DNA of 64,000 nucleotides from Chloroflexota bacterium (GCA_029557965.1 JAKQIM010000043.1:1-64000), one strand, 5' to 3'. Shown: positions 59,251-64,000, numbered from the stretch's first letter. Translations and numbers: made by a program. Notes: generated by a model from the sequence alone, not told the origin.

Positions 59251-59302
59251 GTCTATAAAAGCAAAAAGCGGTGCATCGACACCGCTTTTTGCTTTTATAG
59301 AC
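59251..59302. terminator. Perfect bidirectional terminator between kinase and acyl-AMP ligase genes
   Basis: Two perfectly complementary 23-base arms flank the loop CATCGA. Runs of A and T at both ends of the arms give a U tract in each direction, and the ligase stop codon lies inside the right arm. It should end both convergent transcripts. Confidence 0.85.
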
Positions 59303-61034
59303 TAAAGTTATCGCTCTCAGACAGGTATTTCTCACGGTTGGCGCTGCGCGCCACCTTGCCGCTGCTGGTCTTGAGCAGCCAACCGCGCCGGACGAGCTTA
59401 ACGTAGCGCAGCACCACGTCAGAGCCGCGTGTGACGCGCTGGCGGATCTCATCCGCAATGGCTTGTGCGGCTGGGTCTTCGGGGTCCAGGTTTTGGTCTT
59501 CTAGCTCGGCGGCGATGACCACGTCTTCGGTGCCGGTATCGGGGTTGGGCACACCAAAGGCAGCCACACGGCCCGGGTGGATGCCGGCCACTTCGCTGGC
59601 CAGGCCCTCAAGGTCTTGGGGGTACACGTTCTTACCACCCACGATGATGAGATCTTTCTTGCGGCCGGTGACATACACTTCGCCATCAGCCATGTAGCCC
59701 AGGTCACCGGTGAGGTACCATCCCCCGGCGAAGGCTTTCTTCGTCAGATCGGGGCGTTTGTAATAGCCGGTCAGCATGCAGTCAGAGTGCAGGGCAATCT
59801 CGCCCAGGCTGCGCTCAGCCAGATCGTGATGGTGTTCGTCTAGAATGCGCACCCGCGTGTTGTCGATGGGGCGGCCGACCGAGAGCATGCTGATCACGTC
59901 TTCACCGGGCTGGGGAGGGCGGGCCAGGCGGTCGATCAGCAGCCCACGCTGGCTGACGGGGTCAATGGTGACCGGGGCATCAATGCCGCCTTGGGTGACG
60001 GCGAAGACGTTCTCGGCCATGGCGTAGCAAGTCGCCAGGGCGCTGGCGCGAAAGCCGTAAGGCGCAAAGCGCTCTAAGAAGAGCTGGTGGCTGCGGTAAT
60101 ACATGGGCTCAGAACAGTTGATGACAGCCCGCCAGGAAGACAGGTCCACGCCTTCCAGGTCGCGCGGGCGGATCTTCTGGGCGCAGAAGTTGTAAGCAAA
60201 ATTGGGCAGCCAGGCCAGGGTGCCCTGGTATTGAGAGATGGCTTGCAGCATGCGGTAGGGGGCCCGCACCCAATCAAAGGGAGAGAGCAGGACGAGCGGA
60301 ATGCTGCTCAGGATGGGCAGCAAAAAGCCCGCGATCAGCCCCATGTCGTGATAGAGCGGCAGCCAACTGACGATCACATCCGCGGGGGCCAGGTGCAGGG
60401 CACGGCTGTAGCTTTCTAGCTGGTTAAAGACGGCCTGGTGTGAGAGGGCCACACCCTTTTGCAGCCCGGTGGTGCCAGAGGAATGCTGGAGCAGGACGAT
60501 GTCGGCAGGCTGGATGCCCTTGGTAGGGGTGATCTCAGCCGCCTCGGCAGGCCAGGCGATTTGGGATGAAAGCAGCAGGGTGCGGATGGAGGCATGGGGA
60601 GAGATAGCCTGGCGGACTTCAGACTCGAATTCAGGGTACGTGATCACTGCCGCCGGGGCGCAGATCTCAAAGAGGGCTGCCAGTGAGCGACGGTACTGCT
60701 CAGGCGAGAGCTTCTCCGTCAAGAAGGGCATGATGGATGGGATGGCGCCGTGTAAGATGGCGCCAAAGAAGGCATACGCCAGGTCTGCCCCATGTTGCAA
60801 GATGAGAATGACCACTTCCCCGGGTTGGATGCCTGCGCCGGCCAATGCCTGCGCATAGCCGTTAGATCGCTGTAGCAGCTCGGCATAGGTGATGGGCTGG
60901 TCAGGGGCCTGGTTGAAGAGCAGGCGCAGGATGACCTTTTCAGGGGCCTGCTTTGCCAGGTCTAGCAAGCGTTGGGCAACGGTGGCTGCCTGCCCCGCCT
61001 GGGTGGGGAATGTGGGCTCGATTTGAGCTGGCAT
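59295..61034 (-). CDS. Fatty-acyl-AMP ligase (FAAL) type adenylating enzyme
   Basis: A 579-residue ANL-superfamily enzyme. It has QHSSGTTGLQKGVALSHQAV (A3 loop, about 181), SWLPLYHDMGLIAGFLLPIL, LSPFDWVRAPYRMLQAISQY, GWYLTGDLGYMADGEVYVTG, RKKDLIIVGGKNVYPQDLEG and the catalytic Lys in KTSSGKVARSANREKY (about 560). The LPLYHDMGL and GKNVYPQD(L/I)E patterns are those of fatty-acyl-AMP ligases, which pass the acyl group to a carrier protein rather than to CoA. The carrier gene lies four bases upstream. No polyketide or peptide synthase is near, so the acceptor should be the MBOAT pathway of the same operon. Confidence 0.92.
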   Translation of the reverse strand: MPAQIEPTFPTQAGQAATVAQRLLDLAKQAPEKVILRLLFNQAPDQPITYAELLQRSNGYAQALAGAGIQPGEVVILILQHGADLAYAFFGAILHGAIPSIMPFLTEKLSPEQYRRSLAALFEICAPAAVITYPEFESEVRQAISPHASIRTLLLSSQIAWPAEAAEITPTKGIQPADIVLLQHSSGTTGLQKGVALSHQAVFNQLESYSRALHLAPADVIVSWLPLYHDMGLIAGFLLPILSSIPLVLLSPFDWVRAPYRMLQAISQYQGTLAWLPNFAYNFCAQKIRPRDLEGVDLSSWRAVINCSEPMYYRSHQLFLERFAPYGFRASALATCYAMAENVFAVTQGGIDAPVTIDPVSQRGLLIDRLARPPQPGEDVISMLSVGRPIDNTRVRILDEHHHDLAERSLGEIALHSDCMLTGYYKRPDLTKKAFAGGWYLTGDLGYMADGEVYVTGRKKDLIIVGGKNVYPQDLEGLASEVAGIHPGRVAAFGVPNPDTGTEDVVIAAELEDQNLDPEDPAAQAIADEIRQRVTRGSDVVLRYVKLVRRGWLLKTSSGKVARSANREKYLSESDNFSL

Positions 61035-61038
61035 GGGG

Positions 61039-62374: not shown

Positions 62375-63486
62375 TTTTTGAAGGTAACCTGGCTGATCTG
62401 ATCGGCGAGCAGCTTCTCGCCGGCAGGGGTCAGGTGTATGGCAGAGTTGGTATATTCGCCCAGAGAGACCAGGTCCCAGGCGTCAAGGCAGTCCCAATCT
62501 TTTTGCTGGCAGGTTTCCAAAAGAACCTGGCGGTATTGGTCATAAGCCCAGCGTGGGTAGAAGAAATTATACCGGATATTACTGTTCTGGCCCTGGCTGA
62601 TGTAGATGGGCTCATTGACGAACAACACCGGCACTTCTCCAGCCATTTGTACCCCGGCCTGGAGTACATCCAGGGCCAGGTCAGAGGCTTGCAAGGTGGG
62701 CGGCAGCAGGCCGTGGAAGCTGTCATCCGCCTCAAGGTCAGATTGGGGCGAGTCGTAGCTGGGAGGGTAGTATTGGTCTATGCTGGTGGCAGCCCACATT
62801 ACGCCGTACATCTGCAGGCGCAAGAAATCGGCCAGCGGGCGGCGCTGGCCCACCAGCGTGCGCTGCCAGAAAGATGGATTCTCCAGGGCCGGGTCGGCGG
62901 GGTCAAGGTCAAGGGCATAGGTTTCGATGAGGGTGCGAACAGGAACAGGGTTGTGCTGGACGATGGGCGAGCTGAGCTGTTTATCACGCGGCAGCGATTC
63001 GAGCGTGACCAACCAGATAATCAGGTCGGGCTGGTAGGCCAGGGCGTGTTCCAAGAGGAGCAGGTCTTTGGTGACCGACATGGTGGGGTAGCCCAGGTTG
63101 TAGAAGGTCACCTGCCGCCCAGCAAGAGAAAGACCGGCCGCGTTCAGATAGGCGCTGAGGGTATCTTGCGGTTCGAGCAAGAAGCCCCAAACAGAAGAAT
63201 CGCCGAGCAAAACGACGCGGTATTCATCCTCGGCTTTGGGTGCGGCGATGATGTGCGAGGCGAACATGGCATCCAGGTCGAAGAGGCTGAGGTTATATGC
63301 CAGGTCGGGCTGGTCGCCATAAGGCAGGCGCTGCCGCCCGGGGAAGACGAAGTTGTAGAGCGATGGAGAAGCTTTGGGCTCTGCGCCTTTTCCAGGTGAG
63401 CTAGAGAAGACAGGAAAAAGCAGGTTGGCTGCCAGGAAGATCAGCAGGGCTTTGATGAGCACGCGGCGGGCGGAAACATTCTGCAT
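62371..63486 (-). CDS. Membrane-anchored SGNH-like protein (DltD/AlgX-like position)
   Basis: A 371-residue protein with an N-terminal membrane anchor (about 8-26, VLIKALLIFLAANLLFPVF) and an outer SGNH-like domain: YRVVLLGDSSVWGFLLEP (block I with the GDS nucleophile), FYNLGYPTMSVTKDLLLLEH, LIIWLVTLESLP and AIHLTPAGEKLLADQI near the end. The usual Asp three residues before that His is Ser, so esterase chemistry may be altered. I start it at the ATG at 63486. It follows the MBOAT gene by four bases, as DltD and AlgJ/AlgX do. Confidence 0.88.
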   Translation of the reverse strand: MQNVSARRVLIKALLIFLAANLLFPVFSSSPGKGAEPKASPSLYNFVFPGRQRLPYGDQPDLAYNLSLFDLDAMFASHIIAAPKAEDEYRVVLLGDSSVWGFLLEPQDTLSAYLNAAGLSLAGRQVTFYNLGYPTMSVTKDLLLLEHALAYQPDLIIWLVTLESLPRDKQLSSPIVQHNPVPVRTLIETYALDLDPADPALENPSFWQRTLVGQRRPLADFLRLQMYGVMWAATSIDQYYPPSYDSPQSDLEADDSFHGLLPPTLQASDLALDVLQAGVQMAGEVPVLFVNEPIYISQGQNSNIRYNFFYPRWAYDQYRQVLLETCQQKDWDCLDAWDLVSLGEYTNSAIHLTPAGEKLLADQISQVTFKK

Positions 63487-63490
63487 GGCC

Positions 63491-64000
63491 TTAGCCTCCA
63501 AAAAGTTTGAGCAGGGTTTGCCAGGCCAGGGCCGGGGTAGGCAGGGCAAACCAGACCCAGCCCAAGGTGACGAAATGGAAGTTGAGCAGCACACTCCCCA
63601 GCTCAGACAGGCGCTTTAAGCCCGGCCTTTCGTCCAGCCAGGCCAGGCGCGGCCGGCTCCAATCGGCGTAACGGTTGTGGATGAAGAGTCCCAGGCCGTG
63701 CCAAAGCCCCCAAATGGCAAAGTTCCAGGTCAGGCCGTGCCAAAGGCCGATAAAGAGCATGGTGGTCACCTGGCCGATGAAGATGATCAGCGGCAGCGGC
63801 AGGAGCGAACTCTGCCCCTGCTTGATCATTCGCAGGCTGCGGGTGAGGGGATTGAAGTAGTACCCTCGCAGCCATTGGGCCAGGGTCATGTGCCATGAAT
63901 TCCAGAACAGGGTGGGGTTGGGTTTCTGGTAAGGGTGGTCAAAGTTTTCGGGCAGTCGGATGCCCAGCAGGCCGCCCAGCCCAATGGCGATATCGGTGTA
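63491..64000 (-). CDS. MBOAT family O-acyltransferase, C-terminal part (cut by window edge)
   Basis: The frame is open to the right edge, so only the last 169 residues are present. They show the MBOAT core: YTDIAIGLGGLLGIRLPENF, WNSWHMTLAQWLRGYYFNPL and IGLWHGLTWNFAIWGLWHGL with the catalytic His in LWHG, plus membrane segments to the C-terminus. This is the DltB/AlgI group, which moves acyl groups from an inner carrier to an outer polymer. The inner ATG at 63889 is internal, not the start. It is the first gene seen of the acylation operon. Confidence 0.93.
   Translation of the reverse strand, partial: YTDIAIGLGGLLGIRLPENFDHPYQKPNPTLFWNSWHMTLAQWLRGYYFNPLTRSLRMIKQGQSSLLPLPLIIFIGQVTTMLFIGLWHGLTWNFAIWGLWHGLGLFIHNRYADWSRPRLAWLDERPGLKRLSELGSVLLNFHFVTLGWVWFALPTPALAWQTLLKLFGG

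Follow-up and report, generated by a model that had tools for sequence, protein, structure and literature searches.

Gene content of the locus

The 64,000-nucleotide stretch of Chloroflexota DNA analysed here (JAKQIM010000043.1:1-64000 of GCA_029557965.1, hereafter the window) ends in five adjacent genes, all on the minus strand, which the initial annotation had described as a Dlt-like operon with a fatty acyl-AMP ligase (FAAL). Their order and spacing (4 nt, 28 nt, a 4-nt overlap and 4 nt) are borne out by the open reading frame coordinates and the family calls. The window lies on contig C43 (86,841 bp) of a 56%-complete genome; its end cuts the MBOAT gene, and upstream of that gene the contig continues with two more, which gives a seven-gene unit, referred to below as the cassette. 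A 39-codon microprotein frame precedes the MBOAT start by 7 nt and is itself preceded, at a distance of 6 nt, by the gene for a small lipoprotein (LP159). The features are as follows.

59253..59300: perfect 22-bp hairpin bordered by A and T runs, where the FAAL gene ends
59295..61034, minus strand: FAAL, 579 amino acids, candidate for the DltA role (NCBIfam PRK09192, FAAL insertion)
61039..61284, minus strand: acyl carrier protein (ACP), 81 amino acids, candidate for the DltC role (Pfam PP-binding, DSF phosphopantetheine site)
61313..62374, minus strand: SGNH-fold lipoprotein (SGNHlp), 353 amino acids, with lipobox LPAC and Cys (GDC) at the usual nucleophile position
62371..63486, minus strand: membrane-anchored SGNH protein (DltD-like), 371 amino acids, candidate for the DltD role (Ser96, His350)
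63491..64000, minus strand: 3' part of the MBOAT gene, candidate for the DltB role, continuing to contig position 64945 and a GTG start
64953-65072, outside the window: DltX-like microprotein, 39 amino acids, ending in WIYQGF
65079-65477, outside the window: small lipoprotein LP159, with weak NTF2-like similarity only

The Dlt-like architecture is supported, and the putative shuttle microprotein, the most diagnostic part of a Dlt-type relay, lay beyond the window and strengthens this reading.

A fatty-acid-type ligase and its carrier

The ligase matches the NCBIfam fatty acyl-AMP ligase model PRK09192 (E = 2.9e-105), with scores below the NCBIfam subfamily cut-offs, and its top PDB matches are FAALs, with McyG among the more distant PDB relatives. 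An anchor-to-anchor span that measures 46 residues in the window ligase is 46–47 residues long in four relatives and 46 in one annotated FAAL, compared with 20 in three annotated acyl-CoA ligases; the latter come from plasmid records, and acyl-CoA ligase comparators sought in the window's own genome were not found. Judged from the alignment, the extra 26 residues are the insertion that separates FAALs from acyl-CoA ligases, an element that hinders reaction with CoA. The insertion and the family scores together make a ligase of the amino-acid type unlikely, without thereby fixing the acyl chain. NCBIfam DltA does not appear among the ligase's best 25 matches, and the enzyme was not recovered as a D-alanine ligase. 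The fatty-acid type assigned in the initial annotation is thus supported: besides the insertion, FAAL models are preferred over amino-acid models, which argues against the activation of D-alanine or another amino acid. The carrier protein matches Pfam PP-binding (2.2e-6), has weak DltC matches and finds its best NCBIfam match in a natural-product carrier; the DSF phosphopantetheine site is retained in the aligned ACP homologues.

The MBOAT and its WIYQGF microprotein

A profile of the cassette MBOAT has DltB as its best and only strong PDB relative (4e-62). The NCBIfam model LTA_dltB (TIGR04091) matches the protein at 2e-62 with 212 bits, under a cut-off of 375, and an AlgI-type MBOAT scores 165 bits with it as well. 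In MBOAT systems the motif FxYxxF, found in DltX and in the MBOAT PatA, serves as an acyl shuttle with the acyl group on its tyrosine; the acyl-tyrosine has been shown for PatA and the same is described for DltX, while in MBOATs other than DltB the motif forms the C-terminal end of the MBOAT itself (PMC12148441). In the alignment, the cassette MBOATs lack a shuttle motif at the C terminus, as does DltB, and a tail fused to the MBOAT was rejected as the carrier of the motif, since these proteins stop short of such a tail. AlgI-type MBOATs in one flanking region end in FIYFQF. A second, AlgI-type MBOAT in the same genome (contig C2, L005:9069-10508) ends in FIYAQF, with no adjoining SGNH partner recognised.

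The microprotein has the form M..(K/R)LFSRENLYALLLCLILIALVILTAD.(S/A)P.WIYQGF in every readable relative and lies between LP159 and the MBOAT. Leaving out a 79th match with a run of N, 73 of 78 distinct microproteins terminate in WIYQGF and the remainder in near variants. Of 72 loci that can be evaluated, 68 have the gene immediately before that of the MBOAT; of the other four, one is N-masked and in one the MBOAT frame is broken. The microprotein contains one hydrophobic helix, with positive charges solely N-terminal of it, so that by the positive-inside rule the tail should lie outside the cell. The tyrosine and the final phenylalanine of WIYQGF fit FxYxxF. By size, topology, tail and operon position the microprotein can be described as DltX-like.

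LP159 is present in 62 of 68 microprotein-bearing loci. It was considered as a shuttle itself, its copy on this contig ending in the motif-like CGYIYFDH, but its relatives end in CGY(R/K/Q), two of them without the tyrosine, and the WIYQGF microprotein fits better. A variant arrangement was seen in a single genome (G001, 9% contamination), where an ACP-FAAL pair stands beside a divergent MBOAT ending in APFVYQGF, with the motif fused to the MBOAT, and where there is also a 364-residue protein with no Pfam match and a GSS motif at the SGNH nucleophile position. In this genome the loading module of the cassette is thus combined with the alternative known shuttle arrangement.

The SGNH proteins

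The assignment of both exported proteins to the SGNH enzymes holds at the family level only. In the DltD-like protein, Ser96 (in GDS) and His350 are invariant in all 70 sequences; its structural model is a confident one, with a predicted local distance difference test score (pLDDT) of 89.8, its best structural matches are SGNH enzymes, and there is a weak Lipase_GDSL_2 match. The residue three before the histidine is Ser or Thr and not the usual Asp, which implies a Ser-His dyad or a different acid. When run against PDB sequences, the DltD-like profile returned chance matches only.

SGNHlp (AlphaFold pLDDT 88.8) has Foldseek matches to SGNH esterases. The window copy has no Pfam match, and Lipase_GDSL_2 is matched by 21 of 24 relatives. 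The cysteine of GDC occurs in all 68 aligned sequences and the histidine in 64; the loss of the histidine in the other four, together with the missing gene between those for the DltD-like protein and ACP in six loci, suggests that SGNHlp is probably accessory. SGNHlp paralogues elsewhere in the flanks have GDS, with Ser, where the cassette proteins have GDC.

Conservation and distribution

Anaerolineae are bacteria of soils, sediments and hot springs, and orthologues of the ligase, at 50–72% identity, are present in 35 of 60 near relatives, where the recurrent order is lipoprotein, microprotein, MBOAT, DltD-like protein, SGNHlp, ACP and FAAL. The DltD-like profile, searched against 84,980 bacterial and archaeal genomes, retrieved 262 relatives. 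Of these, the 80 best have titles that name Anaerolineae or other Chloroflexota groups, save one labelled only 'uncultured bacterium'; among them is the cultured Levilinea saccharolytica, with at least the DltD-like and SGNHlp genes on a contig that begins there. Among these 80 loci, many of them cut by contig ends, the microprotein, MBOAT and DltD-like genes are in order in 68 and all seven genes in 32. In an even sample of the class (298 genomes), the DltD-like protein is encoded in 70, the FAAL orthologue in 71 and both in 65, a co-occurrence with a Fisher p of 3.6e-52 when shared ancestry is ignored, which includes genomes with the two halves unlinked. All 26 carriers in a sample of the phylum fall within Anaerolineae. 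The recurrence of the cassette in dozens of genomes is far from chance, and its genes are conserved together, contrary to one of the outcomes that the initial annotation had named as refuting its proposal.

A FAAL orthologue with 58% identity, annotated as hypothetical, is also found on a 212-kb plasmid record of Leptolinea sp. HRD-7 (L184, AP024711.1), with no other cassette gene named around it.

A proposed transmembrane acyl relay and its alternatives

An MBOAT, an SGNH partner and a shuttle tyrosine are all found in one cassette, by sequence and fold and with a Trp variant of the motif. A Dlt-like machine joined to a loading enzyme of the fatty-acid type points to fatty acids that are probably attached to something outside the cell, and we consider it probable that the products of the seven genes form a transmembrane acyl relay of the Dlt type that is adapted to fatty acids and whose extracytoplasmic acceptor would most likely be a surface glycan. 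From the families, motifs, folds and gene associations observed we infer the chemical steps, the acyl chain, the direction of transfer and the acceptor as follows. FAAL would convert a fatty acid and ATP to acyl-AMP and the acyl group would be loaded on the phosphopantetheine of ACP; the DltB-like MBOAT would then move it across the membrane to the tyrosine of the microprotein's WIYQGF tail, with the C terminus expected on the outer side; and the DltD-like SGNH enzyme, with Ser96 and His350, would take it from the tyrosine and esterify the extracytoplasmic acceptor. Both lipoproteins would be accessory. In the fatty-acylation route put forward in the initial annotation, the architecture and the type of ligase stand, and fatty acylation itself would be their probable consequence.

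Several observations weigh against this scheme. The shuttle motif begins with Trp instead of Phe, and the Pfam model for DltX (PF12459) did not reach its cut-off with the microproteins, only one of 24 sequences matching it (E = 0.14, 12 bits compared with 25); a search of the genome with PF12459 gave no match, and a PDB search with the microprotein profile gave one chance match only. The leading Trp and the miss of the DltX model make the microprotein a DltX-like protein and not a proven homologue. By sequence, the DltD-like protein matches neither DltD nor the Pfam family of DltD, and DltD (7dxm), which has the highest query-normalised TM-score of its list, reaches only 0.45, a moderate similarity. 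Finally, no glycan gene is a constant neighbour of the cassette.

An MBOAT nearest to DltB, a DltX-like tail and the weak DltC matches of ACP would all suit an ordinary Dlt system, with a ligase for D-alanine or another amino acid and a teichoic-acid-like polymer that is D-alanylated, but the family score and insertion of the ligase, the NCBIfam ranking without DltA and the partner in linked loci, which is an orthologue of this FAAL and not of DltA, make that explanation very improbable. The nature of the chain leaves somewhat more room, as membership in the FAAL family fixes the type of enzyme and not its substrate. The relay could operate as proposed on an acyl group other than a plain long-chain fatty acid (hydroxylated, branched, short-chain or aryl), in keeping with the distant relationship to McyG in the PDB and the natural-product carrier that best matches ACP; we regard this as rather improbable, since the best relatives of the ligase are fatty-acid FAALs and no gene for the synthesis of an unusual acid is conserved nearby.

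FAAL-ACP pairs usually feed polyketide synthases (PKS), nonribosomal peptide synthetases (NRPS) or lipid pathways. This, and the fact that no acceptor polymer was identified, would be explained if the acylated product were a lipid or small molecule at the membrane, such as a glycolipid, a wax-like ester or a natural product, and no polymer were involved. However, PKS and NRPS genes are not among any conserved neighbours, and an outward shuttle tail with exported SGNH proteins fits the acylation of polymers by MBOAT-SGNH pathways (PMC12148441), so that such a product seems unlikely.

If the acceptor of the fatty-acid relay is a glycan, the exopolysaccharide (EPS) made by the window's own locus at 48.6–53.3 kb, which the initial annotation had named as the likely target, comes into question as a special case. 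Its proximity in this genome speaks for it, as do FAAL-ACP pairs found inside glycan loci of relatives: in five genomes a detached pair lies among glycosyltransferase genes, two of these genomes also having Wzz- and WecA-type genes there and two having dTDP-sugar genes, and in three of the five (G007, G025 and G031) the rest of the cassette is on another contig. The EPS locus is, however, 5 kb away behind two opposite-strand genes, and homologues of the window's EPS genes are rare in other flanks. Among 121 loci, 26 are flanked by genes of EPS type, and 11 of these 26 share one convergent family 4 glycosyltransferase. Clustering of the flanking genes revealed no neighbour conserved outside the cassette; an assignment of the target by synteny was rejected for this reason, and the link to EPS is correspondingly weak. 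The EPS of the window is therefore a doubtful target. As a class, a glycan acceptor is plausible and agrees with the detached pairs.

Relation to known systems

The cassette resembles the Dlt system (DltX-A-B-C-D) in its adenylating ligase, its carrier, a DltB-like MBOAT without a tail motif, a separate membrane microprotein with a shuttle-like tail, and an SGNH enzyme. It differs in the FAAL that replaces the D-alanine ligase, in the WIYQGF tail with Trp first, in two extra lipoproteins and in its Anaerolineae host, and its DltD-like protein and microprotein are not recognised by Pfam or PDB sequence models. With the PatA-PatB pathway of peptidoglycan O-acetylation and AlgI/AlgJ/AlgX-type pathways it shares the MBOAT-SGNH pair and the acyl-tyrosine shuttle motif, but these use acyl-CoA, have neither carrier nor ligase and bear the motif at the C terminus of the MBOAT (PMC12148441). 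The FAAL-ACP modules of PKS/NRPS and lipid pathways (FadD32-type, PRK09192) likewise combine a carrier with a FAAL that has the insertion; in the cassette, however, the partner is not a PKS or NRPS but a putative MBOAT-SGNH export relay.

MBOAT-SGNH pathways other than Dlt are described as having neither a carrier protein nor a DltX-like microprotein (PMC12148441). Contrary to this pattern, the cassette has both, plus a ligase of the fatty-acid type. The open-access papers searched on FAAL with MBOAT, DltA, DltD or lipidated polysaccharide describe no such system, in agreement with the initial annotation, which knew of none with this makeup; the cell biology of Chloroflexota has been called poorly studied (PMC7332563). 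The cassette may represent a second, fatty-acid branch of the DltX-type relay, in which long-chain acids activated by FAAL would pass via an acyl-tyrosine microprotein and end up as esters on a surface glycan, so that the cells of Anaerolineae would be decorated with lipid on the outside; we put this fuller picture forward tentatively, as a real possibility that falls somewhat short of an even chance. If the relay works as proposed, transmembrane acyl relays extend beyond acetyl and D-alanyl groups, and a defined set of genes becomes available with which to test whether surface polymers are fatty-acylated.

Other features of the region

The hairpin at the end of the FAAL gene has a minimum free energy of -33.2 kcal/mol (z = -11.3 compared with shuffled sequences) and is likely a bidirectional terminator for the operon and a convergent kinase gene. 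The latter (57104-59239, plus strand) encodes a Ser/Thr kinase with C-terminal WD40/TolB-like repeats and has relatives in 15 loci. In the EPS region, the C-terminal part of a Wzz-like chain-length protein (50171-51301, minus strand) looks by eye like a degenerate GGDEF domain, with GRWDDLCF in place of the expected GGDEF, and the same holds for the C-terminal part of a membrane protein at 53326-54288 (minus strand).

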